Source of the DNA: Magnolia sinica
Lineage: Eukaryota; Streptophyta; Magnoliopsida; Magnoliales; Magnoliaceae
Direction of reading: 5' to 3'
Assembly: GCF_029962835.1 (NCBI RefSeq)
Contig: NC_080590.1
Coordinates: forward strand, 65,812,501 to 65,876,500
DNA length: 64,000 nt
A program made the position numbers and the translations under genes. Positions 546 to 60,606 of this stretch are shown here, in pieces (position 1 is the first letter of the stretch; each line of letters starts with the position of its first letter). Below the pieces are notes generated by a model. It saw only the letters and a program-made list of their open reading frames with translations, did not search any database and had not been told where the DNA came from.

Positions 546-2110
546 ATTGCTCATACCAAGATCAAACTTCAATTTATTAAACCTGCTTTTGTCGAGCGGC
601 TTAGTAAAAATGTCAGCAAGTTGTGTCTCGGTCGGATATATTCTAAAGATATTATATTTTCTTCCACTAATTCACGAATGTAATGATACCTAATGTTAAT
701 GTGCTTGGTACGTGAATGATGGATTGGATTTTTAAATATATTTATAGCACTTGAATTATCACAGTATAGAACCATTGATTTCTGTGTAATTTCGTAATCG
801 CTTAACATTTTATTCATCCATACAAGCTGAGTACATGTATTTCCAGCTGTTCTGTATTCAGCCTTAGTGGTTAAAAGTGATACAGAACTTTGCTTCTTGC
901 TAAACTAAGAAATTAAATAATTTTTAATATAGAAACAACCACCACTGGTTGATTTCCTGTCATCGATATTTCCAGCCCAATCAGCATCAATGTACCCAGT
1001 CAACTAAACATTAGTATCATATGGATACCAGAGACCCAAATTAATAGTACTTGAGACATATCAAATAATCTGGTTAACAGCAGTTAGATGTGACCCTTTA
1101 GGATCAGATTGATATCTAGCGCAAATACCAACACTAAAAGCAATATCTGGTCTACTTCCAGTTAAATAAAGTAAACTACCAATCATACTGCGATATAATT
1201 TAGGATCCACATTTTTACTTGAAGAGTCTTTTGAGAGTCTTAAAGTTGTACTCATAGGAGTATAAAAAATTTTCCCATTCTCAAAATTAAAGTTTTTAAT
1301 CAAGTTCAAAGCATATTTGGTTTGAGAAATAAATATATCATCAGGTTGTTATTTTACTTGCAACTCTAAGAAATAATTCAATTCCCCAACCATATTCATT
1401 TTGAACTTAGATTTCATTAAATTTATAAACTCAATAGTCATGTTAGTACAGGTAGATCCATAAATAATATCATCAACATAGATCTGTACCATTAATATAT
1501 CATTGTTATGTTTCTTAATAAACACAGTTTTATCCACACTTCCCATTGAAAATTATGACTTAGTAAAAACTTAATCAATTTTTCATATCATGCCGTAAGA
1601 GCTTGTTTCAATTCGTAGAGAGCATTTTTAAGGCAATAAACATGATCAGTGTTTTTAAGGTCTTCAAAATCCATTGGTTGTTCCACATACACTTCTTCAT
1701 ATAAATCACCATTTAAGAAGGCACTCTTTACATCTATTTGATAAATTTTAAATTTTCTAAAGCAAGCAATGGATACGAATAGTCTGTTTGATTCAAGACA
1801 AGCTACTGGGGCAAAGATTTCATCATAATCAATTCATTCAATTTGAGTGTACCCTTGTACAACCAGTGTAGCCTTATTTTGAATTATATTACCAAGTTCA
1901 TCGGGCTTATTTTTGAAAATCCACTTAGTTCCTATAATGTGTTTATCTTTAGGTCTAGGAACAAGATACTAAACATCATTTCTCAAAAATTAGTTAAGCT
2001 CTTCGTGCATCGCAACAATCCAGTTTTCGTCAGTAAGAGCTTCTTTTACATTAGCCGGTTCTATCTGGGATGTAAAGCACATGTAATTACATATGTCTCC
2101 TAGTTGTCAA
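546..2110 (-). pseudogene. copia reverse transcriptase and RNase H remnant
   Basis: The minus-strand translation shows the copia reverse transcriptase core with the YVDD active-site motif (within IYVDDIIYGST near 1465-1480). The RNase H part follows, with SLLYLTGSRPDI near 1140-1190 and ending in a form of DIFTKPL near 580-600. The domain belongs to the copia element described above. It is a degraded fossil of the polyprotein and not a working gene. Confidence 0.9.
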
Positions 2111-2339
2111 CGAGTGCGTACACCTGTGAGAGGGTTTCCAAGAATTTGAGTGGTTGGATGATCTTTGACAGTCCTCAGTTCAGAGTTAACTTGATTAGAT
2201 GAAGTATCTGGTTTGTTAATTAAAAGAACTTCATCATTATCTGAACTTGAGTCAGGTGTATTTAAGTGATCATCAATGACCATATTAATGGACTCTTGAA
2301 TAACACCAGTCCTCTCATTCAGTACCCGATATGCATGAC

Positions 2340-3650
2340 TATTCAAAGAATGCCCTAAAAAGATACCTTCATCACTTTTAGTGTCAAACTTACCCAGATT
2401 TTTACGGTCACGTAAAATATAGCACTTGCTGCCAAAAATTTGAAAGTATTTGACAGTAGGCTTCTTATCGAACCACAGTTCATAAGCAGTTTTATTATTT
2501 GACTTACTTGTATAAACTTGGTTGATAGTATATCAGACAGTATTAACAGCTTCGGCTCAAATATTTTTAGGAAGTTTCATACTATTCAACATTATATTTT
2601 CCATTTCTTGAAGCACTATTTTTTCTTTCAACAATTCCATTTTATTGTGGTGTTTTAAGTGCAGAGAATTCATATAATATTCCCTGATCGCAACAGAGTT
2701 TCTCAAAACTGCTATTCTCGAATTCAGATCCATGATCACTACGGATCTTACTGACTTGAGAACCTTTTTCAGTTTGGATCTTTTTGATAATCCTTTTTTA
2801 CTTCATCAAGGGTTTCTGATTTATCCCTTAGGAAGGCTACCCAAGTGAATCTGATAAAATAATCCATGATTACTAATATATATTTTTTGCCACCTCGATT
2901 CTCCGTCCTAGTTGGTCCTACAAGATCCATGTGGAGAAGTTCGAGCGGTATTGATGTGACATTGGAGTTCACCTTTTTGTGAGTACTCCTAGTTTGCTTG
3001 CCTATTTAGCATTCGCCACATATTTTGTCTACTTTCTGTAATTTAGGTAAACCTCTTATCAGTTCTCTTATACTCAATCTATAGAGATTGCGGTAGTGTA
3101 CATGTCCAAGACGTTTATGCCATAACTCAGTCTCATCGGTATGGACCATGTAACACAGTTGATTAGATGAGCTAGAATTACTTACGATGTAACAGTTTTC
3201 AAAAGTTCTACGACCAGTTAATATTACTGAATATTTTTTGTTTAATATTGCACACCCTAGGTTAGAAAATTTAACACTATGATTTTTATCGCATATTTGA
3301 GAAATGCTTAATAAATTATATTTTAAACCTTCAACATACAAAATATTCTCAAATAAAGGAAGGTTAGAAAGTTGAACCGTACCTTGGCCAATAATCCTGC
3401 AGTTGCTACCATCACTAAAAGTGACTGACCCATCAGTCATGTCTTTAAGATCGGTGAATAGACCTTTATCACCTGTCATGTGCCTTGAGCATCCACTGTC
3501 TAAGTACCACTTTGAATGGTTTAAAGCTTTGAAAGCCATGTGAGCAACCAAGCAAGTAACCTTAGGAACCCATTTCATAATTGTTTTGGGTTTAGGAGTA
3601 TAGTTGGTCTTCTTATGTTTGTAGTTATTGTAAGAATGACCCACTGAGTT
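2340..3650 (-). pseudogene. copia integrase and protease remnant
   Basis: Near 3480-3530 the minus strand encodes WYLDSGCSRHMTG, the copia protease active-site region (DSG). It is followed by the pre-integrase zinc domain (LWHKRLGHVHYRNL near 3100-3140) and the integrase core entry (LLHMDLVGPTR near 2910-2950). This order, gag then protease then integrase, matches Ty1/copia. It is part of the broken copia element. Confidence 0.9.
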
Positions 3651-3659
3651 AGATTTTAA

Positions 3660-5345
3660 GAGCTCCTTAAGAAAATCAAGTATTTTTTCAGCTAAAGGGT
3701 TTCGGTTCTGATTTTTATAGTTGATATGATTACTTTTAGGTTTGAAAGATTAAATAGTTTTAATATTTTTAAAAAACTTTTGAATTGAACTATTTCCTTT
3801 TGAGTTTGAAGATTTTCCTTTCACAAACTTAGGAGAAGTATTCTTATGTTTAGGAGAAACATTTTTATCGTAGCCCAAACCAAATCGGTCACCACATTTT
3901 CTTGATTCAGACAAAAGCTTTTCTAACTTTGGATCACCTTGAGTATATCTTCATGTATCCTTTAAACTCAAAAGAGAAGAGACTTCAAGTTTTAGTTTTT
4001 CATTTTCAGATTTTAGATTTTCAATTAGGGAAGTTTTGAAATCTAAATCGCATTTTGATTTTTCAAAACAATCTGAAATCTGGGATTTTTCTAAAACAAG
4101 TGAATCAAAATTTTCTTTAAGTTTTGAAAACCTTTCTTTTTGAAATTTTAGTTTTACGACAATTTTACAACTTTCCTTGTATAGGGCTTTGTAAGCATCT
4201 TGAAGATCTTCTTCATTTTCATGAACACTATTTAGATTTTCTTCACTGGTAGAATCATCATGATCTGAAAAAGTGAACTTAGCTAGAGTCATAAGGGCTT
4301 TAACTTCATTGCTTGACTCGTTTTCAGAATCTTCTGATTCAAAAGAGGCTTCAGTGCCAGAAGATTCATCCCAAGTAGCTAACATTCCTTTCTTTTTAAG
4401 TTTGTCCTTTTTAGGACATTTGTTTGCTAAATGCCTATATTCTTGGCAGTTGTAACATTGAGTATTTTTTAAAGATTTTCAAGTTTTAGATTTAGATTTA
4501 GATCTTTTCTTATCATTTGATTTTTGAAAGTTAATCCTCTTTTTACTTTTAAAAATCTTATAAAACTTTTTAGCTAAAAGAGCCATATCATCAGAATTTT
4601 CACAATCAGAATTTTCTTGAGAAATACATTTAGAAGATTTAAGGGCAATAGATTTACCTTTAGGAGCTTTAAAATTTAATTCATTAGTTTGTAAAGACCC
4701 AACTAGTTCTTCTACCCTCATATTATCCGTATCACAAAGTTCCTGAATCGTGGTTACCTTAGAATTGAACCGTTCAGGAAGCGAGCATAATATCTTTGCA
4801 CACACTTTACTTTCTGGAATTTTATCGCCAAAACCCCACATAGAGTTCACAATGTCATTTAATCTTTTATAAAAGTCCATGAACATTTCAGTTTCCTCCA
4901 TATGTATTTTCTCAAATTTAGTTGTGAGGAGTTAGACTTTAGATTTATTGACAATTGATGTTCCCTCGTGTGTCATTTCTAAAGTATCACAAGCTTGCTT
5001 TGCAGTATCACAGGATATAATTCTTTTGAATTCATCCGGTGATAGTTCGCAAATGATTACATTTAGTGCTTTGCATTGGCACTACTCTCACTTTTCTGAA
5101 GTGTGGTCCAAGAAAAATAAGGTGAGACTTTCATTGATTTGGATCCATCGATACCAGTTACTTGAATGGTAGGAGGGGTCTATTCAGTCATTGTGGCTTG
5201 TCACACGCTCTCATCCATGGATTTAAGGAAAATCCTCATCCTGGCTTTCCAAGAGGCATAATTGGAGCCATCAAATGGTGGAGGTTTAGTGACTGATGGG
5301 TTATCAAAATTTGATATCTTATAAATAGCTTAGATCGATTAGCTT
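3660..5345 (-). pseudogene. copia gag remnant
   Basis: The minus-strand gag is recognised by a CCHC zinc knuckle (CYNCQEYRHLANKC, about 4422-4463) and by the DUF4219/UBN2-type capsid region at 4479-4901 (KRLNDIVNSMWGFGDKIPE). A charged coiled-coil segment at 3951-4385 has heptad-like leucines (KSENEKLKLEVSSLLSL). A coiled coil after the knuckle is a feature I associate with SIRE-type gag proteins. Degraded. Confidence 0.85.
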
Positions 5346-24898: not shown

Positions 24899-25728
24899 AT
24901 TTCTACGCTTCAATTTTTTATGAATTCAGTCAAACATTAAGGTTGAATGTTCCTACTATTCTCATAAGTATTAGTAAATTTTGGCAATAAACTTCCATGT
25001 TAACTAGAAACTCTTCGACTTCCACAAGTCGAGAATATCCTCAAGAAATCAAATGCCGCCATGTAGCTTCTATCTTCAACTATATTGCAATAAATGCATT
25101 ATCACGCCCATTCATTTCTGCAACTATTAATGGTTTCTCGAATATGTTTTCTTCTTCCATACCCACAAATCTTATTGTTTACAAATCCTTGAATGCTCTT
25201 CATTATTAATCAATGGCTCTTGATATGTTTAGCTTCGCTAGGGCTTTCTTAATCATTGCCTTCGAGCTTGACCTCCTATCTATGTGCTGATTAGGGAACA
25301 GAGAGGGTATTGTGACTCACCTTCTCACACTTCAACCAATGTTGGCCACTGATAATTGAGCTAAAATCTACACAAGCCAATTGCAAAGAATCTGAACCAT
25401 TCTTGAGGATTTTGAACGACCCTAAACTCTTCACGACCTAGTGACTAAATGGTTCGAAACTCTTTAATCTTTGATAACGAGATTTGAGCAGAAGGAGTTA
25501 ACATACAATGGCCTTCGAGACTCCCTTGTTAGAGTTTATATGGCATATCGACATGCTCAGTGCCGTGTCAGTAATTTACAATGACTCAGATGAAGGCTAA
25601 GGAGGGAAGTTAACCGCATATTCCACTCTGCAGATTTGGAAAACCAACGTTGTGTGGTCCAACATCAACTTTAGATAGCTCAGAGCGGTTTGCGCCTTGC
25701 AACTGTAAGATGACTAGGGCCAAAGCTT
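24899..25728. repeat. Unidentified ~800-bp unit, copy A
   Basis: No gene is recognisable. The stretch is similar, at low identity, to copy B at about 34760-35240 plus 37075-37440. Matching landmarks in order are GAAACTCTTC, CCATGTAG, GA(G/A)CTTGAC, TTCA(C/T)GA followed by TGGTT(C/T)GAACT, and CTTGCAACT. Since the CACTA element between the two copies is a later insertion, the two units were originally close together. Short open frames (24997-25209) show no known domain. Confidence 0.5.
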
Positions 25729-26195
25729 CACTACAACAACTGGGACTTTTACTGGTGCTCTAAAGCGTCGGTAAAAGCCCCTAAAAGCGCCAGCAATTGT
25801 AATAGTGGCGCTAACCAAGCGCCGATAAATCAGTATGTCGGGAAAAGTATTGACAGTGCTAAGTTAGTTTTAGCGACGCTTGTCTGAGCACTGCTAATTG
25901 TAATTTTTCCCGACGTGAATAAGCACTGGTAGAAGTGGGTTTTGAACACTTTTTCTCATGAAAAGGCACCGTAAAATTTCTACACGAGCACCGGTAAAAG
26001 CTTTTCTATAGATTTGGGAGGCCCCAACATGCCAGTAATTTTTAAATATTTAAAACATAAAAATGATGCCATACAAATAAAACTGAATATTAAACAAATT
26101 TATATTACTAGATAATAAAAAAATATAATATTTATTACAATACACATCTTCAATTTGATGAGTTGGCTAAAAAATATCAATGTTAATTGATAACG

Positions 26196-27101
26196 AATAC
26201 ATCGGATTTCCTTCACTTGAGGGTTATCGGGGGGGGGGGGGAGGGGGGCTTATGCCATACAAATATCCTGCAATTTGAGTCCAAAGATCTGCTATGCAAA
26301 TAAACTTCTTCAAAATGTTCTTGGCCATGATGTATGTGTAGCCTGTCTCCTGTAATCAGGAATTACTCACGTAAGTTTAGTTTCCAGAACCTTGAAAGTT
26401 AAAAAGTGCATACAATGAAAAATAGACATAATTATTTACCTTAATGTCCTCAGTGTTCACATAAATATGATTGACTCTAAGATATAGATTCGTCGCTGAG
26501 ATTGCTCTCACACGCCAATCAGTTTTAGAACCAAATGCTGCTTGCTTATAGGGGCTTGTTGTGGTGACAATGAGTTCATTGCCGTGCACAATTGTTGTCC
26601 TTGTTGTTGACTACTATAAGTTGGCTTGTTCTTTCACCTGCACATGAAGATTTGCTAAAGATTATTAGCCAAGTGAAACCGGCAAAGAAGCTTCTCAGCT
26701 TGATAGACTTTTATTAAACGCATCACCTGCTTCTCAATCTCCATAATCTGTTGCCTCTGTTGTGAAGGTGGAGTTATCTCAACCCCCAGTATTATACCAT
26801 GAATTTTAGACTGTGTCAGTGCCGAGGTGTTTACATTATTCTTCTTGGCATAATCTGAGAGTATAAGATCTCTCAGAGAAACCTCAACCTGCATTGAATG
26901 AGATATTAGCAACTCTCATAGCAATGACATGCAATGCCAACCTCACACTGGACATTACAATAAATGCCATAGATAGAACTTTCATGTCATAAGTTGCTTT
27001 GAGAAAGTAAGATAGTAGGAAAACTTTTGAATCTTCTCATGATGATAAAATGCTTACCTCCATAGTCCTTGATCTCAGCAAAAATAGGATGCCAAGAAGA
27101 C
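26196..27101 (-). pseudogene. Captured fragment of the spliceosomal protein gene PRP8 (three clear exons, perhaps a fourth)
   Basis: PRP8 is the large U5 snRNP scaffold at the spliceosome centre. Reading on the minus strand, exon 26727-26888 is 54 codons in phase 0 with AG and GT flanks ([34 protein letters not shown]). Exon 26440-26637 gives [20 protein letters not shown] and [17 protein letters not shown]. Exon 26196-26349 gives [20 protein letters not shown], then [12 protein letters not shown] and [11 protein letters not shown]. These are consecutive in PRP8, across the RNase H-like to Jab1/MPN part. The second exon contains two in-frame stops, and a G/C run (26229-26247) expands the SPP-DNP junction in the third. 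Exon 27058-27101 may be the next one upstream. The source gene is about 2,300 codons, so this is a small piece. Confidence 0.93.
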
Positions 27102-27182
27102 CTGTAGAGAGAAGGATAAAATCAGGAAAATATTTTTTTAAGGTACAATTTGCAAAAATATTTACCAGAAAACAATTTCATC

Positions 27183-27307
27183 ATAAATCTAAAACCACTT
27201 GATACCATCCTTCTAGCTTATTTGAGGTCTCCTCATCAATCTCACATACAAAACCAAAATATCTATCATAAGAAACATTATAGATCTTCTTCTTTGCTTC
27301 TTCCTCA
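27183..27307 (-). pseudogene. Captured exon of a MORF/DAG organellar RNA-editing factor gene
   Basis: The minus strand encodes EEEAKKKIYNVSYDRYFGFV followed by CEIDEETSNKLEG. This matches the conserved MORF (RIP/DAG) box, where family members read SEEEAKKKIYNVSCERYFGFGCEIDEETS. MORF proteins partner with PPR proteins in C-to-U editing in plastids and mitochondria. The piece begins at a CAG acceptor (27308-27310) and about 34 codons are retained; the similarity then stops. It lies between the PRP8 and AP-2 alpha pieces in the same orientation. Confidence 0.88.
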
Positions 27308-28051
27308 CTGATAAATCATACATTACGAAAATAGTAAAACAAAAAGCCCCAATTATAAAAACAATTAAAACAATGCCATTCCAAACAATAGAGGCTGAAA
27401 CAAACAATATGCAAAGAAGAAGAGATTAGAAAAGAGATGGTGATCGGTCTATCCAATTTTCAAATGTGACCCACCTAATGAGTGAATGGGCCTGATTTGT
27501 TGGCCTGGGTATGTCAACAATGCATCCCACTTGTTGAATGACCTGGATCTTGAAGGTGTACCACATTAGCACATTTATGGGTAATGTCCTCTTCTGTCTA
27601 ATTTTCAAGTCTCTGAATCATATTGATCTCTTACATGAACAAAAGAAACCGCAAGAAACTAAAGAAATCACATTGCCAAGATGGGTGTACACATCAATTC
27701 CCAAATAGGAATTAGGAACAGAGCAAAAAGAGGAAATCAAGATCAAAAAACCTGAAGTCTCAAGTGTCCAAGATGTCCAACATTTGAGACTGGAAGTTGA
27801 AATTCAGACTCCCTAGCCTTGAGGTGGACTCTGATTCTACAACTGACATCAATAGAAGACAAAAATAAATAAATAAGAGGAAAAGCTTGGATGGGATAAA
27901 GGAAGACTGTTAGCAAATATCTGAAAGTATCGTCTCTGGTTGCCCATTAAGGACTGTCTGAAAGAACTTAAGGACTGCATTATAAGAATTCAAGTTGGCA
28001 TATTCAACCATTACTTGTCCACAAAAAACTTAAGGACATCCCTACTGATAC

Positions 28052-28183
28052 CCTATAGGCACACAAATCTGATTTGACATCAATTGTCCCTTCGATCTGG
28101 GAAGCATATACATGAGGGCAAACATTTTTTGACCAGTACTCTTTCAAATGCTCTGTAGCCTCTGTCCAACCATGAACTAGAAC
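28052..28183 (-). pseudogene. Exon-like 44-codon segment of unidentified origin inside the CACTA element
   Basis: On the minus strand this segment is preceded by TATTGTAG and followed by GTATCAG, is exactly 132 nt, and is open throughout. It includes VLVHGWTEATEHLKEYWSKN and CPHVYASQIEGTIDVKSD. Its length, phase and splice flanks resemble those of the neighbouring captured exons, so I infer another host gene piece. I do not recognise the family. Confidence 0.5.
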
Positions 28184-28365
28184 CTACAATACTCTAATAG
28201 AGGAATATCTTTACTGGGATGAAAAGAGGACATGCTTCTCAATATGTGAAAAAAACCAATCATGGTTTGTTACTGCATGTTACATGTTTCTGAGTAAACA
28301 ATTAGGAAGAAATTTAAAATTAAAAAAAATTTAAGAAAAAATTGCCTTCCAAAAGCAATTCAAAC

Positions 28366-28548
28366 CTGAAGCCATGGTGATGGGATCCTGTAGTAGGTGT
28401 ATTCTTGTGGAACATCCTGGTTCCTAGCAAGCCTCTCTAAAATTTTAACACACTTTGGAAAACTACTCCAATATGCTTCATGGTTATTTGAAACTGTGTT
28501 AAAACCCCTAGATTACGCTCATCTAGAAGCTGTGTCATGCAATCTGAC
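28366..28548 (-). pseudogene. Captured exon(s) of the AP-2 complex alpha-adaptin gene
   Basis: Alpha adaptin is a large subunit of the clathrin adaptor AP-2 in endocytosis. The minus strand encodes DCMTQLLDERNLGVLT at the upstream end. It then encodes NHEAYWSSFPKCVKILERLA and RNQDVPQEYTYYRIPSPWLQ. Both are consecutive conserved parts of the trunk domain, where family members read AQLLDERDLGVLTS...NNHEAYW. The two halves are in different frames, so the copy is not translatable as such. Flanks are CTTTTCAG and GTTTG, consistent with splice sites. Confidence 0.93.
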
Positions 28549-31142
28549 CTGAAAAGAAATGTAGCTAAAACAGAAAGTCAAGTGAGCATAAATAATCAAC
28601 AGGGCCCCATTAGAGGTAGAATACAAAATCCCTACTTAACAGCCATCTACATTAACAAAATTAGGATTCTCTTTACTTGCATAAATTGCAGTTTTCTATT
28701 TTACTGTTGATTTTTGGATTGAGACTGACTCTTTGCAAGTAAATAACAGTGCTAACCATCAAGCTATATATAATAACGGTGCTAACTATCAAATATGGAT
28801 GTCTCACACAATGCATGAATGCTACATGTACAGCGGCAAATACAAATAGCAAGCTGTGGGAGACCGAGTGTTTTTCTACATTATGGATCCAACACTCAAA
28901 CGATTTGCATTTTGATATCCTTCTAAAAACTTAACATATAATTATGTAGATCTCAGCATATTTACTTACACATACTTCATATTTATATGCATTTGAACAT
29001 ATCTAGTTATATCTTCCTATCTTGATTCGCTGTTGCCAAAAGCCTGAGTTTTGCCTTTCCTTCTGCAATTTCTATTCTTGTGAATATTTTAACATAAAAA
29101 TCTGCATATCTTTATATATTTACTGATGTGTCTCCATATTTACATGTTATTAGTTTGTTGGGCTTGTTTAACACCTTGGGTATGCTTTTGGGATGCAGAC
29201 ACACAAGTTACATTGATTTTTAGTATGTTTGGGGTTTTATTCTGTGATGGCCCTACTTGCAGCCCCTGTTTCTGTATTCTGCTCGCTTTCTAATATTATA
29301 TTCTGATTATCCATTTTTTTAAAAATTACTTCTTTTAATATGCATAGTTCTTCATATGCATATTCGCACATATACAAATGAATGTATGAGTGCACACAAA
29401 CATATGGTTCAACACAACATTAGCATCTTAAGTGTCCATATTTAGGATTGTATGTGTTGCTAAGATCCCTTGCCAGGTAAATTTTGTTATCAAGAGACAG
29501 AGAACTGAAGAGTAGAAGTTTAAAACCTTATACACATCAATGCACTCTGGTGCATAAAATACTGTTATTTATTTGATTAACAGCCCAGAAGCAGTTTCAT
29601 TTGACAATAACTCATGTTTCTGTAATCATGGATTTTGAAACTAAAGCTTCACTTGCTCCATACATAAAACTTGTCCCTTGCTCATGAAAAGAAGTTCAAA
29701 CAGGATTTCCATCCAAGAAAGATTTACAGAACTTGCCTAAGAGTGCCACATAAAACATAAGCCAGCAATGATATAATCAAAACTAGAACTGACTGAAAGC
29801 TCCAAACCAATATTTTATATGAGGAATAAGAAAATAAGTGGACGTGATGCAAAATTGGACATTATAGTTCTGTAGAAAGAGTGAAATGATAGAAAAGCAA
29901 TGTTAATCATTTTCCAATACCTTCACAGGGCCAGCGAAAATAGTTTAATGAAAAGAAAAGGTAGATGAACACCGAATCCATTCTTGAAGTTGAAATTAAA
30001 TTATCATATGGACGAAAAACCAACAACTACGGATTTCAATAATTTTTTTTTGAAGGATATGGATTTCAATAATGAATATGAAGTTTTAGTGACAACTGAT
30101 CACCTACAACTTCCTGTACGCTACAACCCATTTATTTATTTATTATTTTTTTTTTTTACTTCAGCTTTTGTTTCCACTTTTGCCCTTGGAAATATCATAT
30201 ATTCTCAAGGTTTTAAAAAAATGCTTGTAAAGGTTTGTAGGTTAACGTTCAGCTGGCTGAGGTAATCAGTGCTTTTTCTAAGTTAGTTTTCAAGCATTTG
30301 ATATCCACACGTGGGACGCATGTACAATATCCCGACCTTTCGTCAATTGGGCCCAACTTGAGTGATCTGCCTTATTTTTGGCTTCTCATACTAACATGAG
30401 CTACAGAAACTGATGAACGGATTGAATTTCACACGGAAATTGCTGTGGGCCTCAGAGAACATTGGATTACAGGAACTCCCTCCAAATGCTCTTACATTGA
30501 ATGGGCTGGATCTCTGCCACGTGTGCCATCCACAGATCCAACGTGCATTTTCTTGGCAACCAATCTGATCAATATTAAACATTCCATCAATGGTCTTTAA
30601 TTTGGATGGGCAAGATCATTTCCATAGAAGTACATTAGCTGATCCTGCCACAACCTTAGCTGTAGCAATAAAAGGTTGGCAGGGAAGAAATTTTGAGTTT
30701 TCAAATAGGAAAATGGCCATCAAATAATTAGCTATCTGCAGTGAAAAACAAAGATCTTCAAAAGACCACAACAAAAATTCATTCTGTAAGTTCATTTATA
30801 ACATATATCCAGTATGATAAGATAAACCTATGGAGATCAATAGAAAAATAGTAACATTTGAGGAAACTGGAAAAATAAGAAAACAAAACGCAACAGTATA
30901 ATTATGCAAATTTCCATGCAAAAAAGAAACTAAGAACATTACAGAATTGCCAACAAGAAACTCTTCATATTTCTTACATTACATATTAAGACTTGTGAAG
31001 CTGAATGAACCTTTAAAAAAAAGCTAATCCAAGAAAAACCCAAAAATCTATTTCACAAATACAAAAACCCGATCATTTAAATGGAGATTGAAATCAATAC
31101 AAGTTCCAAAAACAAAGAACAAGCTTAAAAAAGAAAACATAC

Positions 31143-31244
31143 CCTTTTCAGAAAATAGAAAATCAAGGCCACACATCAAGACCCAATCATGTCGATGTAG
31201 ATAATTTAGCTCGACGACATCATTGTCAACAATACCTAAGCGGC
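31143..31244 (-). pseudogene. Captured exon of the MOCS3/CNX5 (sulfurtransferase/adenylyltransferase) gene
   Basis: The minus strand encodes RLGIVDNDVVELNYLHR after a CTTCTCAG acceptor and ends at GGTATG. In MOCS3/CNX5 and related E1-like enzymes the ATP-binding region reads GRLGIVDHDVVELNNMHRQ. CNX5 activates the small sulfur carrier in molybdenum cofactor synthesis and tRNA thiolation. After HR the sequence departs from the family (HDWVLMCGLDFLFSEK), so only about 17 codons are diagnostic. Confidence 0.8.
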
Positions 31245-32178
31245 CTGAGAAGTGAAAATACATAATCAGTCTAAACAAATGCAGCATAAAGCAAAATACT
31301 ATAGTTACTGAAACAACAATAAAGAGCAAGTACCAAAATACTATAGTTACTGTAAGTGATGAAAGTTAATTCATGGATAAGCAAAAGCATTAATCAATCT
31401 AAACAAATGCAGCATAAACCCAAAGATCCTGACATTGAAATCAAGACATGATTATCATGCTATTAAATGTTCAGCAGAAAAAGTTCTTGAATTTACATCA
31501 GAAGAATGGTCTAATGCCTTCACCTAAAAATAGCAGAAGTTGACTAAGAAATTGAATGGGCTGTGCAATCGCATTGTTGCAAAGAACAACAAAATTAATC
31601 TAGAACTCTTAACAGAAGCTTGGATACTGTATGGATATATCAAATAGCAAGTGAAAACAAATAGGCATTTGCTTCAATATTGATTTGGGGAAGGCAACTA
31701 AATGTCAATGTGCACAACAGTAACACTGTCCATGTCTTGATTTTCAGCCCAAATCAAGGGTTGATTTATCCCACTTTGGATTTGGAATGAAATCAAATAC
31801 CCAAATAAAAAGTCCTAGTTGTGAACTTGTTTCTCCCTTGTGTTATTTGAGAAAGATGCAGACCAAATTGCTCATGCATCAAATCTATTTAGACAGTAAC
31901 AAACCCCGGCCGCAAGTACCACATTGTATCTACCATGTTCATGAAGCTATCATTCGAAAACCGAATCTCATACTAAAAAAACTAAAGAAACAATCTTCAC
32001 ATTACCATGAGATAAAAGTACAAGAATAAATAGACAAGGAAATTTTCTTATGCAAATACAAATATGGATATGCAAATACTTGTTGTTATGTAGCTATCCA
32101 AGTTACCATCTTATAAGTATTCTGACACATAAATGCATGTGCAAACACATAATAGGTGAGGAATATCGCCAAGCTTAC

Positions 32179-32450
32179 TTGATTGCTATAGTCTTGGACT
32201 TCAAGGCAATGCTATAAAAACCATGAACTTCCTCTGGAGCTGAAAAGCTTGCCAAGCAAGATTCTAGGGGCACCCGTGGTTGTATGTTTTCATCAGAAGC
32301 TCTGCTAGAATTCAAAGGCTCTACTTATCAAGACAGTGCAAACTGAGAATGACAAAAACACAATGTTTAATCAATGCTTCTATTACTTACACTTCCTTTC
32401 CCTCTCAAGCCTTTTCTGATTTTAACTTTTGAAAGGCTTCTAGTTGTTCT
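32179..32450 (-). pseudogene. Captured exons of ubiquitin-specific protease UBP14 (isopeptidase T)
   Basis: UBP14 removes unanchored polyubiquitin chains. The minus-strand exon 32179-32320 is open and encodes NIQPRVPLESCLASFSAPEE, then VHGFYSIALKSKTIAIK; family members read IVRPRVPLEACLASF...FYSTALKAKTTAIK. The preceding exon, about 32391-32450, gives LEAFQKLKSEKA with an in-frame stop and a GTAAGT donor at 32385-32390. Family members read ELEAFQKLKAEK here, directly before the next exon. Two adjacent exons and the intron between them were therefore captured together. Confidence 0.88.
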
Positions 32451-33116
32451 AAATTCTCAAATTACAAGATTATCAGAAAAAACAATCAAGGTAAATTACC
32501 AAAGAAAAAGAAAATTAAAAAGGAAAAAAGAAAAGATGAGAGAAGTTGTACAAACAAATGGAGGTAAACATGGATTCTGTGTTAGAATGAAAAATAGAGA
32601 GAAGTTGTACAAATGGAAAGCAACTGATCATGAAACAAAAATAGCCAAAGTGGATCTTATCACTGTCCAATCAAATCCAAAAATGGGAAGAGGTATTGCA
32701 TAAATAAGATGTTCTTCATGTTCAGTACTTGAAAGGTGTAAATAATTCTGATAATAGAACTCGCAACAAACTATGACAGTCTACCTTCTAATAACTGAGA
32801 CACCGCATAGCCTTTTACAAAAATCCACCCCAGTATATACTGATCTTGCATTCAATAAGAAAATTAAATAATAAAAATAATGTTACAAAAGCGTTCTCCC
32901 TGTAAATCAAATAGTGCACATATCTACTACCGTTTCACTTTCAGTAAGACATACAGGGAGATTTTTTAGGCATGGGGCACTAATAACCAAACCTACTACT
33001 TCATTTGTACGAAACAAGTACAGAGCACAGAACATCCATGTTTTCATCACCAAAAGGATTTATAGATTGTGTAAATGTTTGTGAAACAAAACCACCACCA
33101 GAATCAAAAAACTTAC

Positions 33117-33162
33117 ATCCAGACTTTAAATTAGTAAAGGCATCAGATTCAAAAAGTAGGAC
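33117..33162 (-). pseudogene. Short exon-like segment, unidentified
   Basis: Preceded by TTTCTAG and followed by a consensus GTAAGT donor on the minus strand. It is 46 nt long and translates as VLLFESDAFTNLKSG. It may be a further exon of the element's transcript or of a captured gene. Nothing links it to a family. Confidence 0.35.
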
Positions 33163-33794
33163 CTAGAAACTCTGTTAACAGAAGAAGGATTAGCACAAAA
33201 GAGGAAAATGAGGAGCTTTGCTAAATACAATGGCCACATGCACCTGTTACAGGCGGGCATACACATGTGGGATATAGAGTTGTGCTCCACCCAGGTGGGT
33301 GATGTGGGTCCCACCACAAAAATCTAACCCACTACATGGAGGGCCTAAATGCAGAAAGCAGACTCTTGAGAAACAAGAATCAGCCAGATTAGAAGATCCT
33401 GAACCTCTGACAAATGGCCTTTGAATGGATTGTGAAGTAGAGAGTACAACAACAGTCCACATCCAACAGAAAACATTACAATGGTTAAAAGGTTAGGATC
33501 TTCCAATCCAAGAGCTTTCTAGGCATCTCCATCCAAGAGTGGGGCCCATCGGATAAATAGCATGGATCACTGAGCTGGATCCACTACTACCGAAAACCAT
33601 TCAGTTGCAAATGCAAGTTTATTGAAAAATCAGATCAAGGGAAGAGAATTGCAGGAATCTAGAAAGCAAAACCAAAATCGAAAGTAACATCGTCGAATCT
33701 CGTCAGGAAGTCGGGAAATTATAAGAAATTTGGAGAAATAGGAGTAGAAATCTAGGGTTTTGAATTGAGTGAGTGAGTTGGAAAAGGGCAGTAC

Positions 33795-33838
33795 CTTAAA
33801 TTGGAGATGGAAGAGCGTGGAATGAAATCCGGATTCAT
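33795..33838 (-). other. Possible first coding exon of a chimeric transcript
   Basis: Downstream of the leader an ATG at 33838 opens MNPDFIPRSSISNL and runs into a GTACTG donor at 33794. No other exon of this frame can be assigned. Its position makes it a candidate start for a transcript through the captured exons. Confidence 0.35.
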
Positions 33839-34216
33839 CTTTTTACTCTCTCAGCTCACGAGAGGAGAAAGTCATGAAAAATATACAAGAAATCCACATA
33901 TGAAAAATGGAAAAAGAAAAAGCATCTTCTCACTTGAATTTTTTGAAATCCAAACCCTAGTTCTAGATCTAGTAAATCCCCACCATAACCAATCAACAAA
34001 CCTTGCAAAGTGCAAAAAATAGATCCAAAACCCTAGGAAACAAGAGAGTAGCAGATCCCAAAGCAGGTTTCTATAGCTGGAGAGATCCCAAAGTAGCCGT
34101 GAGAGAGAAAGAGGAGAGACAGAAGGAGAGAGTCATGGAGTTGTAGAGAGAGAGAGAAAGAGAGAGAGAGAGTCAAGTGTAGGAAATAGGAGAGAGTCGC
34201 GCTGGAGTCGGTAGGG

Positions 34217-34222
34217 TTTATA
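34217..34222 (-). promoter_or_regulatory. TATA box and CT-rich leader at the right end of the CACTA element
   Basis: The minus strand reads TATAAACCC at 34222, about 110 bp inside the terminus. It is followed by a CT-rich leader (34080-34175) and CTAGGGTTT motifs (around 33950-34040). This is the typical make-up of a plant Pol II core promoter and 5' leader, and it faces all the captured exons. Confidence 0.5.
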
Positions 34223-34337
34223 CATACATACATACATATATATATATATGGTAAGATATCCGTCGGGTAGGTCTTACATAGCGTCGATGAAAGAGAGGCG
34301 CAAATGCCGTTTATACCTGTTTTTGCTGTAGTGCTTC

Positions 34338-44318: not shown

Positions 44319-46642
44319 TGTTCACACCCCAAGTGCAGGGTTGTGATGTAGTAATAAATTCGGTAAGACCGAGGTCGAATCCACAGGGACTGATACCTGT
44401 ACGTTATCTGAAACCAAGAAGAACTAGAACTAGTCGCAGATGCGATCGAAAACAAATAGAATTTAGGAAATAATTGCGGAATGATTATCTAAAACTTAAG
44501 TAACTCAGAGGAAGGAAACTAGGGATTCAGAGGATCCACTTGTAGAGATCAGGGAGATCTTTTGCCTGCATCAGGAATCATGGAAATCAAACTGAACTTA
44601 CTTGATCTGGTTTTCAAGAGATGAAAGGTATATGAATTAGAATGGATTCCATCACCAAACCATGCCCAGGAGACAAAGTAAACAATAGAATTAAACTAAT
44701 TACCAACCAATCAACAATGTATGAAGATCAGGAAGGTACTGTCATCCTACCATGCCCATGGGACAATGATGAACAACAGGGCTTCCTGACTTCATAAATA
44801 TAAAAAAGAGGAAAGAAATATTCAAAGCCATTGCAAACCCATTGTAATTTCCGTCACAACAGACCATTAAAGACTAATACAAATATTCCTTATAATAATC
44901 AACTAAATCAAATTAAGTTCAGAAATTTAATCTACTTGCATAGAATAGCCTCTCCCATCTCGCTACAGGCTTCACCTCTTAGCCCTAGCTAAGAGGATTA
45001 GCCACACATGGATGGGCTGATCATAAAAAAATATAAAGGAAATATAAAGGAAAAGAAGAGAAAAACCAGGCTTAGCTCACGTGCCAGCCCAAACCCAAGC
45101 CAACCGTACGTCCTTCTCTGTTTCTTCTTTTTTTCTTCCTTTCCTTCCTTCCTTCAAAGCCAAAGACCCAGCACCTTCACGTTCTTCAATCAGCCTCACA
45201 GCCTCCCTTTCTTTTCTTCCTGCTGGCGTCCTCACGCTGCCAGCAGCAGACCTTTGCACTGCTTCTCTTTCTCCCTCCCGTCCAGCCTATGTCTAACAGC
45301 CGTGCACTCCACGTCCCTCTCCCTGTTTCCAAACTTTCTTCCAACCAAAGACCAGCCCCTCCCTGTCTCCTCCCAGCCCCTCTTTTTATCCTTCAAAGGG
45401 CGGTGAAGAGGTCGCAATAGAGAACCGACGCTGCTGGAGTCCTTCCGGAGAATTTCGCAGCCAGCCACTATAACTGCGTCGCAGCAACATTTTACACAGC
45501 TACAGAAACAGCACTGACACTCCACTTCCTTGGCTTTCTTTGCAAAGAAGCAACGTCCCTTGGGGAATAACTTGATGAGCTACACGATGGACGGTTTGGA
45601 TCGTCCATCCGATCAAAGGTAGTGGCCCACATGATTCCGGAACATCCGGAACTCGCGGACGCGCGAAACAGGGGCCTGCGAACGCTTCTTACGCTGTTTT
45701 GTTGGTGGGGACCACTGCGATTTTGTTTTGAGAAATCCACTCCGTCCACCGGATTCCTCTCAGAATTTCGGTTAGAAATGGATGCTTTTGGGTTGCTTTT
45801 GATGCGGTCCACCAGACTTTATGCACTGCCATTCGTCTTGCGTTCGGATAGGTGAAATTAGATCCTCGCTGCTTCTTGAAAAGCTTCCACCTAGGTCTCG
45901 GTTAGTGGACCTGTAGCGTTCTGATGGACGGTCCAGATCTCCCGTATGATGAATCCAAATGGGCCACAAAACTTCCCAGCGGACGGTCCTTGCGTGAAGG
46001 GAAACAGAGATTCCGTCTCTGGAAAGGAAGCTGACGGGCGCGCGTTGTTTGAAGTTTTGCTCCGGTGTAGTGTACTGCAAGTGCACTTACTGCAGTGCTC
46101 GTGCAGCACTCGTGTGGCACCTCAATGATGGTTATGCAAAATCCAATCCGTCCTTCCCCTGTATCATCTCATTTAACAGCTGATACCAAAAATTGAGGCA
46201 TATCCAGATATCGTGCGGGCCCCAAAATCAATGATTTATGGGCTGATCTGTCCGTTGAGCCAATTTCACAGCAATCCAATGGATGAAGTTTTACGTGTAC
46301 GGTTCATTTATGGTCTTCAGGCCACGTATGGAGTTTCGAACTGATTGGATGGTGGGAACCTTATGATCTTGCATTCTGGACACTTTTCAGGCCACTTGAG
46401 CTTCAATTCCTTGATTTTCTTGAGTCCCTGATGTGTAATTCCTTCGTTCTTGGTCTTCTAGAGTCCGTTCCTTACCTTGGTGCTTCGGGAGTGTCGAATC
46501 CATGAATTTACCACCCTTTTTCAGTCCAGGCTTTTAAACACACCCTACATTACAAACACGATTAAATTAGTCCGATAAACAGTATCATGCGTGTAAATCT
46601 ATGCAACAACTGGGTCTGATATGCAATATTTGACCCTCAACA
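44319..46642 (-). repeat. 3' LTR of the Athila element
   Basis: It is 2324 bp from TGTTCACACCCC to CCCTCAACA. The adjacent internal sequence on the minus strand, GCTGGTTGGGGGTTG, is the polypurine tract. Open frames in the LTR (for example 45008-45406) are CT-rich chance readings shared with the other LTR. Confidence 0.95.
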
Positions 46643-52085: not shown

Positions 52086-53399
52086 TTACATAAAATCTGT
52101 AATTCCCCGCATTGCCTGAGCCAGCTCTTGTATGGGATTTTGAACCAGTTCCTCTTGAGGTTTCACTTGATTTGGATTTTGATTGAAGAAACCTGGAGGA
52201 GTCGCCGTTTGTCCATTCCTCCAACTAAAATTTGGATGATTTTTCCAGCCAGGATTGTATGTGTTGGAGTTGGGTCCAGTAAAAGGTCTTTGATAATTAT
52301 TTACAGCATTGGCTTGTTCATTCAATACTCCTCGAAAGGCAGGTATTGTAGGACAGTTTTCAGTTGTGTAAATGTTGCAATCACAGATGCCGCAAACAAC
52401 TTCATTGACCTTATCCTTCTTTCCTTCCATGGCCTCAACTTTCCTTATGAGCGTAGTCACTTTACACTTGAGATCATCCTCTTCTTTCAAGAGATATAAT
52501 CCACCTTTCTCCTTTAATTGCGTCGGCCTAGACGTGGTGTTCGCCAGTGGGTAATAGTCTCATGATTGTGTTTTTCCAGCGAGACTATCGAGGTAATCCC
52601 ATACCTCGTCAACATCTTTGTTGATGAACTCTCCATTACACATTGTCTCGACCATTTGGCGCATGGAAGATGTCAGTCCATCGTAGAAAAAATTTGTAAT
52701 GCGCCACGTTTCAAATCCGTGTTGTGGGCATGAACTGACCAAATCTTTGAACCTTTCCCAACATTGGAAGAATGTTTCATCTTCCTTTTGGGCAAAGTTC
52801 ATGATCGCTTTTCTGAGGGTAATCGTTTTATGATGTGGGAAGAATTTTTTTATGAATTCCCTCTGCATATCGTTCCATGTGCCAATGGATCTAGGACGCA
52901 GTGAATGTAACCACGTCTTAGCTTTCTCTTTTAAGGAAAAAGGAAAGAGTTTCAGCCTAATTGTATCCTCAGATACATTAGGAAAACATAATGTAGCTAT
53001 AATCTCATCGAACTCTTTCAAATGTAAATATGGACTTTCTGATTCAAGTCCATGGAATTTGGGAAGGAGTTGGATAACTCCTGGCTTGATGTCCATTTGT
53101 CCTGTATTTTCAGGAAAAATCATGCATGAGGGCATACTCACTCCCGCCGGTTGTAGATAATCTCGTAAAGTACGAGGCGGGGGTGCCTGTTGCACCTCGT
53201 TCTCATCTTGGGTATCCTCCACCCTGGGTGGAAGTGGAGGAGGTTGGTCTTCAGCCATAACCTCAGTTAACTCAGGGGATTTCGAGCGGTGTCTAGTCCT
53301 GCGATGGATAGTCAACCCCTCAACCAATCCTCCTTCAGTCAAGAGACGTCGAGTGTTGTCACGGGCCCACTTGGGCATGAAAACACTCGCAGCCCTCAA
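52086..53399 (-). pseudogene. Athila gag region
   Basis: The minus strand shows the retrotransposon gag capsid domain: FHGLESESPYLHLKEFDEII, then LKLFPFSLKEKAKTWLHSLR and EFIKKFFPHHKTITLRK (about 52800-53060). An asparagine- and proline-rich C-terminal part with a CGICDC segment follows to about 52086. This is the Athila-type gag. Confidence 0.92.
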
Positions 53400-54038: not shown

Positions 54039-56361
54039 TGTTCACACCCCAAGTGCAGGGTTGTGATGTAGTAATAAACTCGGTAAGACCGAGGTCGAAT
54101 CCACAGGGACTGATACCTGTACGTTATCTGAAACCAAGAAGAACTAGAACTAGTCGCAGATGCAATCGAAAACAAATAGAATTTAGGAAATAATTGCGGA
54201 ATGATTATCTAAAACTTAAGTAACTCAGAGGAAGGAAACTAGGGATTCAGAGGATCCACTTGTAGAGATCAGGGAGATCTTTTGCCTGCATCAGGAATCA
54301 TGGAAATCAAACTGAACTTACTTGATCTGGTTTTTAAGAGATGAAAGGTATATGAATTAGAATGGATTCCATCACCAAACCATGCCCAGGAGACAAAGTA
54401 AACAATAGAATTAAACTAATTACCAACCAATCAACAATGTATGAAGATCGGGAAGGTACTGTCGTCCTACCATGCCCATGGGACAATGATGAACAACAGG
54501 GCTTCCTGACTTCATAAATATAAAAAGAGGAAAGAAATATTCAAAGCCATTGCAAACCCATTGTAATTTCCGTCACAACAGACCATTAAAGACTAATACA
54601 AATATTCCTTATAATAATCAACTAAATCAAATTAAGTTCAGAAATTTAATCTACTTGCATAGAATAGCCTCTCCCATCTCGCTACAGGCTTCACCTCTTA
54701 GCCCTAGCTAAGAGGATTAGCCACACATGGATGGGCTGATCATAAAAAAAAATAAAGGAAATATAAAGGAAAAGAAGAGAAAAACCAGGCTTAGCTCACG
54801 TGCCAGCCCAAACCCAAGCCAGCCGTACGTCCTTCTCTGTTTCTTCTTTTTTTCTTCCTTTCCTTCCTTCCTTCAAAGCCAAAGACCCAGCACCTTCACG
54901 TTCTTCAATCAGCCTCACAGCCTCCCTTTCTTTTCTTCCTGCTGGCGTCCTCACGCTGCCAGCAGCAGACCTTTGCACTGCTTCTCTTTCTCCCTCCCGT
55001 CCAGCCTATGTCTAACAGCCGTGCACTCCACGTCCCTCTCCCCGTTTCCAAACTTTCTTCCAACCAAAGACCAGCCCCTCCCTGTCTCCTCCCAGCCCCT
55101 CTTTTTATCCTTCAAAGGGCGGTGAAGAGGTCGTAGTAGAGAACCGACGCTGCTGGAGTCCTTCCGGAGAATTTCGCAGCCAGCCACTATAACTGCGTCG
55201 CAGCAACGTTTTACACAGCTACAGAAACAGCACCGACACTCCACTTCCTTGGCTTTCTTTGCAAAGAAGCAACGTCCCTTGGGGAATAACTTGATGAGCT
55301 ACACGATGGACGGTTTGGATCGTCCATCCGATCAAAGGTAGTGGCCCACATGATTCCGGAACATCCGGAACTCGCGGACGCGTGAAACAGGGGCCTGCGA
55401 ACGCTTCTTACGCTGTTTTGTTGGTGGGAACCACTGCGATTTTGTTTTGAGAAATCCACTCCGTCCACCGGATTCCTCTCAGAATTTCGGTTAGAAATGG
55501 ATGCTTTTGGGTTGCTTTTGATGCGGTCCACCAGACTTTATGCACTGCCGTTCGTCTTGCGTTCGGATAGGTGAAATTAGATCCTCGCTGCTTCTTGAAA
55601 AGCTTCCACCTAGGTCTCGGTTAGTGGACCTGTAGCGTTCTGATGGACGGTCCAGATCTCCCGTATGATGAATCCAAATGGGCCACAAAACTTCCCAGCG
55701 GACGGTCCTTGCGCGAAGGGAAACAGAGATTCCGTCTCTGGAAAGGAAGCTGACGGGCGCGCGTTGTTTGAAGTTTTGCTCCGGTGTAGTGTACTGCAAG
55801 TGCACTTACTGCAGTGCTCGTGCAGCACTCGTGTGGCACCTCAATGATGGTTATGCAAAATCCAATCTGTCCTTCCCCTGTATCATCTCATTTAACAGCT
55901 GATACCAAAAATTGAGGCATATCCAGATATCGTGCGGGCCCCAAAATCAATGATTTATGGGCTGATCTGTCCGTTGAGCCAATTTCACAGCGATCCAATG
56001 GATGAAGTTTTACGTGTACGGTTCATTTACGGTCTTCAGGCCACGTATGGAGTTTCGAACTGATTGGATGTTGGGAACCTTATGATCTTGCATTCTGGAC
56101 ACTTTTCAGGCCACTTGAGCTTCAATTCCTTGATTTTCTTGAGTCCCTGATGTGTAATTCCTTCGTTCTTGGTCTTCTAGAGTCCGTTCCTTGCCTTGGT
56201 GCTTCGGGAGCGTCGAATCCATGAATTTACCACCCTTTTTCAGTCCAGGCTTTTAAACACACCCTGCATTACAAACACGATTAAATTAGTCCGATAAACA
56301 GTATCATGCGTGTAAATCTATGCAACAACTGGGTCTGATATGCAATATTTGACCCTCAACA
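54039..56361 (-). repeat. 5' LTR of the Athila element
   Basis: It is 2323 bp, with the same termini as the left LTR and about 24 differences from it, one of them a single-base length change. Confidence 0.95.
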
Positions 56362-58670: not shown

Positions 58671-59664
58671 TTCGCCCTGGGAAGTTATTTGATACTCTGG
58701 CTGACTATGACCCTTGATAGGCAGGCACTTAGAAATTGAACATGTGAAAAATATTAACTTAAATGAAACCGACTAGATTACGGAAGGCACAAACGATAAG
58801 TTACAGTCTAAAAAAATGATTTTTTTTTTTTTTTTTTTGAACGATCCTGACCACTGATTCATGAACACTTTTTCTGAAATAAGACCGTTGGATATTTTTC
58901 AATTTTAACCGTTCTATAAATATCAAGATATTTAATTGTTACATAAATAAATGTGAGTAATTTTTTGTACACGGCACATCTAATCTAATACCCATAATTT
59001 GGAAGGTTTTGTTTAAATTAATTGTATTCCAAGTATGCAATTTCTCAATAATTTCTAATTGCCTGCGTGTCATCCATCACGGTCTGCCAGAGCATCAAAG
59101 TATTTCTCGGACGCCCTTTCTCACAAAATAAATACTAGAGCGATTTGCGCGTGTAGAATCAGTTGGGTTGAATTGCGACCAATGCGCAAACATGTCACAT
59201 ATGTGTTGAATCCTGGCCTTTCATTAGATATTCCTCACTGTTGAACTAATATGATCTAAAATTCACAGTTCTCTGCTATGTAATTGTGCTACACATATAT
59301 GAGAAAAAAATGAATGCCTGGGAAACAAGATAACCAGTGGAGGTCATCCATTAATACACGAGGGGTACAAATGATCAACGATCCAGTCTGATTATTAGGA
59401 TGTCGTGTTTTCACAAGAGGCTGCACCCAATAAATGGACCCGATCATTTGTACGTGATTCAAATTCTGCACGTGCGTCGAAAATTCGTACTTCAATTTTC
59501 ACTATAACGTCTCTTCTCACTATAACGTCTTCCTATGCACCACACTCGCCTCGCCAACCCTTCACGAGACTAACGTGCACACTACTCTTCATAACACCCC
59601 TTTCCCGCCACCACCCTCCCCATTTGCTGATCCCCACACGCTCAACACCTATCTGCCCGTCGAT

Positions 59665-60081
59665 ATGGACTCGCATGGCGATGAAACGTCCGAGAAGACG
59701 TGGGACCCACGTCAAGGGCCCACTAAGAATGGGCTCCATGTGGACACCAGTGGTAAGCGTGCGGCACGGCCCAGAGACGAGCCAGGCGGTGCGGGCCCAC
59801 CACCAACGGTGGGGAGTGTGCCATGTGGTGCGTGTAAGTTCTTACGACGTAAGTGCATTAGTGGGTGCATCTTTGCGCCTCACTTTGGGTCGGATCAGGG
59901 TGCAGCCCGGTTTGCAGCAGTGCACAAGGTATTCGGTGCTAGCAATGTTTCCAAGCTATTACTGCACATACCGGCCAACCGACGGCACGATACGGTCGTT
60001 ACCATATCTTATGAGGCACAGGCGCGGCTTTCTGACCCTGTTTATGGATGTGTCTCCACCATACTTGCCCTACAACAACAG
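59665..60081 (+). CDS. LOB-domain (LBD/ASL) transcription factor, exon 1
   Basis: LBD proteins are plant-specific nuclear DNA-binding regulators of organ boundaries, lateral roots and vascular development. This exon of 139 codons encodes the LOB domain. The zinc-finger-like CX2CX6CX3C block is [16 protein letters not shown] (residues about 57-72). The GAS block starts at [20 protein letters not shown] (about 88-107), and the start of the leucine-rich coiled coil is [16 protein letters not shown]. It ends with CAACAACAG before GT, the intron position shared by the family (after LQQQ), in phase 0. The wording is closest to the LBD16/18/19/20 class I proteins. I chose the ATG at 59665 (MDSHGDET); an in-frame ATG at 59575 would add 30 residues of proline-rich sequence unlike LBD N-termini. 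Exon 2 (VxxLQAQL...) is not found before 64000, so the gene is partial here or has lost its 3' end. Confidence 0.93.
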
Positions 60082-60606
60082 GTTCTTCCACCATTTCTCT
60101 TTTCTTTTTTTCTTTTTCTTTATTTATTTATTTATTTATTTTTTAAAAAAAATAAAATTTGAAGGGTCCGGTTGGGGATGTGCCCTACCATCATGTATTT
60201 TCAAAACTCATTTTATCTATCAGTTGAGTGATCTAATTTTTGGCTAGGATTGAAAAATCAGTTCCATTAATCATAGTTCAAGTGGACCGCATAATTGAAA
60301 ATAATATACAAGGGTGACACTCACCCTACAAACTGTTTATATTGATGTGGCCCACCTAAATAAGGAATGAGCTTGGTTTTCGGATCCTATGCCTAAATTC
60401 TTGTGTCATGTAATAGTTTAATCAGATTTCACATAACCATCATGGTCGGCCCAATAAAAATCAACGATACACATCACTTTCTTAAATGCTTTTTTAATTT
60501 AGTTCACCTCAATGGCTGATATTTAAGCTGTGCGCCTAACATGATTAGACATTTGGTGGATAAGGTGAATTTCACCTAAATATGATGGGGGAAGTTGGCA
60601 AAAGAC

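Follow-up and report, generated by a model that had tools for sequence, protein, structure and literature searches.

A likely Pack-type CACTA element of Magnolia sinica, with relatives that share a PRP8 fragment in the left end and recurring cargo modules

A stretch of 64,000 bp from the Magnolia sinica genome (NC_080590.1, positions 65,812,501–65,876,500; "the window" below) contains a transposable element that is very likely a non-autonomous Pack-type CACTA element and a member of a large family. The left end of this family includes a captured genomic fragment of the PRP8 gene, the right end common to its copies is short, and the cargo between the two is variable. The same cargo modules are found in copies that are otherwise unlike each other. 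The coordinates of the features are given in Table 1, and numbers with the prefix L denote individual copies and loci in the genome.

The element begins with CACTACAACAAC at 25729, and its right end is the complement of CACTACAGCAAA, finishing at 34333. CACTACA is found at both ends, as in the CACTA/En/Spm superfamily, and a CTT target-site duplication flanks them. A preliminary description of this DNA had reported these termini and the duplication, and both were read in the sequence; its start coordinate also stands, while its end at 34334 was one base too far. Both ends were found in 13 elements, 12 of which have equal 3-bp duplications (L022 is the mismatch), and element lengths range from 6,970 to 12,012 bp. 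A right end was not found for L010, L013, L014, L015, L018, L020, L027 and L028.

Short subterminal repeats, as in the CACTA superfamily, are also present, the termini being rich in GCGCC-type repeats. AGCGCC/GGCGCT occurs 92 times in the termini of the 13 elements and twice in their interiors. A related repeat pattern occurs six times at the left of the element, against a mean of 0.29 in shuffled sequence, and once only at the right (P 0.06). The right ends of the family are alike over the last 100–250 bases only, where the minus strand carries an AT-rich stretch and a (CT)n tract, and the right end of the element appears promoter-like on that strand. No transposase (Transposase_21/TNPD) was recognised in the element, and Rfam at gathering thresholds gave zero matches inside it. 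Host gene fragments without a transposase are characteristic of Pack-TYPE elements (here, Pack-CACTA), and four of the fragments were matched to host loci and to PDB or Pfam. The earlier assignment to this class, with fragments of several unrelated host genes, is thus borne out by four independently matched pieces.

All five of the gene pieces named in the preliminary description are on the minus strand. The PRP8 piece aligns with the host gene for PRP8, L032, over 735 bases, introns included, at 93.3% identity, and it matches PDB 8xi2 (E 5.6e-21). The downstream exon sequence of L032 continues the match to what we take to be the PRP8 protein, and its upstream frame presumably encodes PRP8 as well. 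The MORF piece matches Pfam MORF_dom (1.2e-12) and PDB 5ydg (4.1e-13); apart from its closest locus (Table 1), it is 81.6% identical to a second MORF locus, L034, over 26951–27331. The UBP14/USP5 piece matches PDB 3ihp (E 9.7e-7), and its match to the host locus L040 includes an upstream exon and intron. For the AP-2 alpha piece, a first single-frame query gave no PDB match at 1e-3, and a query with X across the frame break matched PDB 4nee (E 1.9e-5).

The AP-2 alpha piece has its closest relative in the damaged locus L033, which has the same broken frame. L039, where the exons are unbroken, is 84.2% identical over 28249–28670, and a third locus, L038, is 89.0% identical; both match over shorter stretches than L033. 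An origin from an intact AP-2 alpha gene was rejected on these grounds, and the description of the cargo as fragments of essential genes needs correcting for this piece. The fifth donor, CNX5/MOCS3, is weakly supported: the piece is 19 residues long, of which 17 equal what is presumably the CNX5 sequence, the Pfam ThiF match is under the cut-off (E 0.13), and there is no PDB match. Four of the five donors named earlier are therefore matched independently.

The source-like loci of PRP8, MORF, AP-2 alpha and UBP14 match contiguously through introns, which indicates that the cargo was captured as genomic stretches. Two further candidate pieces in the element were rejected. A sense-strand gene piece at 30241–30724 was not confirmed, as four frames there had no Pfam match, and searches with a protein-like frame at 28007–28183, mostly within a dispersed repeat, gave nothing. 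Short dispersed repeats at 27998–28190 and 27682–27901, inside captured pieces, have many matches at 83–95%.

The family was found by searching the 1.84-Gb assembly (127 contigs) with the left kilobase of the element. This gave 672 first-look candidates and 43 match rows from the 40 that were scored, and 20 matched places were fetched from the scored candidates. These 20 relatives were chosen by their match to the left kilobase, and their sharing of the left end follows from that choice. PRP8 exons 2 and 3 are present in every copy read, only a subset retains the PRP8 exon that lies furthest upstream, and the PRP8 junction on the left side is common to the copies. The interiors mostly differ – 19 other copies match the element in the first kilobase, falling to one or none over most of the interior, and three to four match it at two modules and the right end.

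Across the element and 19 relatives, the first 950 bp have a mean pairwise identity of 0.92, a difference of about 8%. The tree of left ends is star-like, with internal branches of at most 0.006 and terminal branches of copies of 0.017–0.041. Distances from copy to gene and from copy to copy in PRP8 are alike (0.051 and 0.060), and at 10 of 471 PRP8 sites the majority base among the copies is not that of the gene. From the star-like tree, the similar distances and the few differing sites, the family probably spread in one burst not long after the capture of PRP8. One copy of 12,012 bp, L017, has a CACTA transposase-associated domain remnant, split between two neighbouring frames (E 2.5e-8, at L017:1752–1916, and 4.1e-4), on the same strand as most cargo. 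The stretch L017:1752–2402 (+), with L029, marks a 12-kb family member in which this remnant stands together with a legumain piece.

Cargo is shared between copies in several combinations. L026 shares PRP8, MORF and AP-2 alpha with the element (91% over element positions 1–2942), as does L037 (88% and 91% over two stretches), and in L035 MORF continues from the left block without AP-2 alpha. Long cargo is shared by L009 with L021 and L022, by L016 with L019, and in part by L023 with L025. The UBP14 module is found in L011, L016, L019, L041 and further loci, in several unlike settings. The module that begins at the CNX5 piece has 15 other genome matches at 93–97%, and a module at 28663–28854 is shared with L017 at 96–97%.

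The UBP14 module was compared site by site with its gene. At 40 of 582 sites the element, L011 and L041 have a common base that is not the base of the gene, and all three contain the same 23-bp insertion; when L016 and L019 are included (five copies), 23 of 251 sites are of this kind. The same measure for PRP8 (the element, L011 and L026) gives 8 of 469 sites. Because the copies share both the sites that differ from the gene and the insertion, a single capture of the UBP14 piece that was later passed between copies is supported, though not proven.

A history of the family may be proposed from these comparisons. Copies would be moved by a transposase supplied in trans, and cargo would be gained as genomic stretches with their introns. 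Template switching, aberrant repair or the remobilisation of neighbouring copies could account for the gain and exchange of cargo, and the left end with PRP8 would be kept while the interior was replaced. The direct repeat at the MORF/AP-2 alpha junction fits possible slippage there. Transcription would start at the right end and run leftward.

Several observations weigh against this history. The mechanism of exchange is read from mosaics, and the junction repeat lends it weak support. No autonomous partner was found among the fetched copies, nor was a source locus found for the CNX5 piece, and source tracing covered the element outside 28670–31190 and 32681–33893. L041 (C10:4521000–4530999) has three cargo modules of the element, and the 10 kb fetched from there lack the left block with PRP8; either modules are also found outside the family, or this copy is a truncated one. 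The comparison of UBP14 has the gene as its sole reference and is unpolarised; changes in the gene itself, or an unseen paralogue as the true donor, may account for the shared differences.

This last point bears on the alternative that there was no exchange, and that the same pieces were taken separately from the same donor genes or their paralogues. The UBP14 piece boundaries do differ in the element, L011, L016 and L019, as independent captures could leave them, and the unpolarised differences could sit on the gene's own branch. Nevertheless, the UBP14 copies are 90–98% identical to each other and 86–89% to the gene, with the insertion in common, and 40 of 582 sites in UBP14 against 8 of 469 in PRP8 is beyond what recent change in the gene alone would be expected to give. 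Other modules recur at 96–97% in otherwise different copies. Independent captures are unlikely as a general account, and for UBP14 they are less likely than a single capture followed by exchange. Far more remote is the possibility, raised in the preliminary description itself, that the termini come from two different elements, with the fragments between them by chance. The ends agree at 10 of the first 13 bases only and differ beyond, but this pairing of end types recurs in 12 other elements, 11 of which have matching 3-bp duplications. Together with CTT on both sides here, this makes two elements very unlikely.

The PRP8 exons and the orientation of the cargo raise the question of whether the copies act as exon traps. 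On this account PRP8 with its splice sites is a fixed part of the end, and each copy is a cassette of a right-end promoter, exchangeable cargo exons and PRP8 terminal exons, in which sense cargo is retained more often – a combinatorial exon-shuffling machine. We consider this doubtful. A stronger form, in which copies with sense cargo are favoured by selection because the chimeric RNA is useful to the element or the host, is more doubtful still. In its favour are the single orientation of the five named pieces, the ten minus-side against three plus-side Pfam families of the count below, the AT-rich stretch and (CT)n tract common to the right ends, and the two splice sites compared across copies, both in PRP8, which are mostly intact: AG is present in 18 of 20 aligned rows at the acceptor of exon 3, and 19 of 20 rows have GT at the donor that follows exon 2.

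The codon positions of the PRP8 exons speak against it. In 19 copies, pairwise differences at codon positions 1, 2 and 3 are 0.066, 0.057 and 0.052 in exon 2 and 0.046, 0.058 and 0.034 in exon 3, with 0.055 in the adjoining intron. Third positions are not more variable and several copies have stops and frame breaks; nothing here points to coding constraint on exons 2 and 3 since dispersal. Purifying selection on these exons was accordingly rejected, and, judged on them, the captured exons do not have the constraint of a domesticated chimeric gene.

Orientation was counted blind from Pfam matches of open reading frames. In seven representative complete elements and the non-redundant parts of two, frames of at least 40 residues were taken with the best coding score first (150 of 287 scanned on the minus side, 150 of 235 on the plus side); the score was computed with an assumed codon table. 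In ten further copies, frames of at least 45 residues were taken longest first (150 of 191 minus, 150 of 177 plus), without low-complexity frames and the retrotransposon stretches of L013, L014 and L018. Eight of these ten are copies with no right end found, and some of their frames may be outside the element. The kinase, LRR and legumain models were counted once each, and Transpos_assoc was left out.

At E 1e-4 or better the minus side had ten families (AMP deaminase, C13/legumain, MORF, SNF2, MAP70, metallophosphatase, LRR, P5CR, glycosyl hydrolase 1 and kinase) and the plus side three (CRM in L024, DUF7812 and DEAD), with a two-sided P of 0.09. Adding PRP8, AP-2 alpha, UBP14 and CNX5, which were indicated beforehand and are not blind, gives 14 to 3 (P 0.013). 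Relaxing the threshold to E 1e-3 adds ANTH, HAUS4 and DUF3915 to the plus count and Adaptin_N and PAH to the minus count. Named frames were assigned to AMP deaminase, C13, SNF2, MAP70, metallophosphatase, LRR, P5CR, glycosyl hydrolase 1, kinase, the legumain prodomain, MORF and CRM; trials with selected frames gave none for DUF7812 or DEAD. P5CR, glycosyl hydrolase 1 and kinase are from copies with no right end found, and DEAD is from an untraced frame.

A directional bias of the cargo is possible. A strict rule is excluded, because the CRM-domain fragment at L024:1568–1921 (+) lies in a complete element and faces opposite to most cargo; the uniform orientation described earlier holds for the five pieces of this element and not across copies. 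The earlier suggestion of selection for a spliceable chimeric transcript is likewise not supported, in view of the CRM fragment, the absence of any sign of PRP8 codon constraint, and the stops and frame breaks. Transcription probably runs from the right end toward the left end, judging from the sequence, and pieces that face it could be spliced onto the PRP8 exons; this looks incidental and not selected.

Table 1. Features of the element in the window
Feature	Position in window	Strand	Basis or remark
Whole CACTA element	25729–34333 (8,605 bp)		Matching termini, CTT/CTT, relatives with same ends
Target-site duplication CTT, left copy	25726–25728		
Target-site duplication CTT, right copy	34334–34336		
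Left terminal inverted repeat and subterminal region with AGCGCC/GGCGCT-type repeats	25729–26196		Common to 20 relatives; 6-mer enrichment
PRP8 fragment: three partial exons, two introns, part of upstream intron	26197–26930	-	Host gene L032, PDB
MORF fragment with intron sequence	26966–27957	-	89.2% to L036; Pfam, PDB
MORF/AP-2 alpha junction, direct repeat TTAAGGACTG twice	27946–27977		
AP-2 alpha fragment, contains dispersed repeat at about 27998–28190	27975–28670	-	93.6% to damaged locus L033; PDB
CNX5/MOCS3-like 19-residue exon piece (weakly supported)	31189–31245	-	At start of genome-repeated module 31190–31617
UBP14 fragment with intron sequence	31992–32681	-	85.8% to host locus L040; module in several other loci
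165-bp module	33893–34057		96–97% to L009, L021, L022
Right end: inverted repeat, AT-rich stretch, (CT)n tract	34005–34333	-	Matches to L024, L017; right-end alignment

Elsewhere in the window there are retrotransposon sequences. Copia-like coding pieces were recognised by eye at 572–4931 (-), and a Gypsy-type element with a gag-like frame, also recognised by eye, lies at 48.2–53.4 kb. Its coding region is flanked by near-identical sequences at 45002–45579 and 54721–55298, which are likely long terminal repeats. An Rfam snoR71 match at 52714–52820 (+), of 52.8 bits, overlaps the gag-like frame. A frame at 59399–60244 (+) resembles what we take to be an LBD-domain protein.

The family holds a layered record of the gain and reuse of gene fragments by CACTA elements – one piece is in all copies examined, others are in few, and modules recur. 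Its size would make an orientation bias of captured genes testable, and gene predictors may annotate such copies as genes.

Capture of fragments and recombination of cargo are largely known from other plants, at least as far as the parts of the reports consulted here go. The soybean CACTA element Tgm-Express1 has exon and intron sequence from five unrelated genes within 5.7 kb, and its fragments are spliced as extra exons into chimeric RNAs (PMC1947982). It resembles the Magnolia element in carrying pieces of several unrelated genes, and five donors, put forward earlier as unusually many, are matched there in a shorter element. The Magnolia element differs in being one of many copies in a family whose left end has PRP8 sequence as a fixed part.

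In the Tpn1 family of Ipomoea nil (morning glory), which numbers 339 non-autonomous copies, the insertions have 3-bp duplications, the terminal regions are conserved, and captured host sequence has taken the place of the interiors (PMC5105172). The Magnolia family is alike in all three features; the portion of the Tpn1 report consulted makes no mention of a captured gene piece in the terminal region or of module exchange, the first of which is found here and the second probable. Pack-CACTA and other Pack-TYPE elements of Arabidopsis, rice and maize have host DNA between CACTA ends, and those of maize hold DNA of several loci; tandem insertion and remobilisation were proposed for the capture (PMC8903248, PMC13317346). 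Family size, cargo, and modules recurring in unlike copies set the Magnolia family apart from what these partial sources describe. Maize Helitrons, in which stepwise gain of fragments was inferred from related copies (PMC3288121), appear similar in sequential acquisition and differ in transposon class and mechanism.

Captured fragments in CACTA elements of Chenopodium, and a CACTA transposase in Magnolia, have been described (PMC8978399, consulted in part). Searches on Magnolia with CACTA and gene fragments, and on CACTA with PRP8 and transposon, gave no title on such a family. Within the sections of the CACTA and Pack literature consulted, no case was met in which the conserved end of an entire family contains a captured host fragment and cargo modules also recur in unlike copies; the Magnolia family combines the two.

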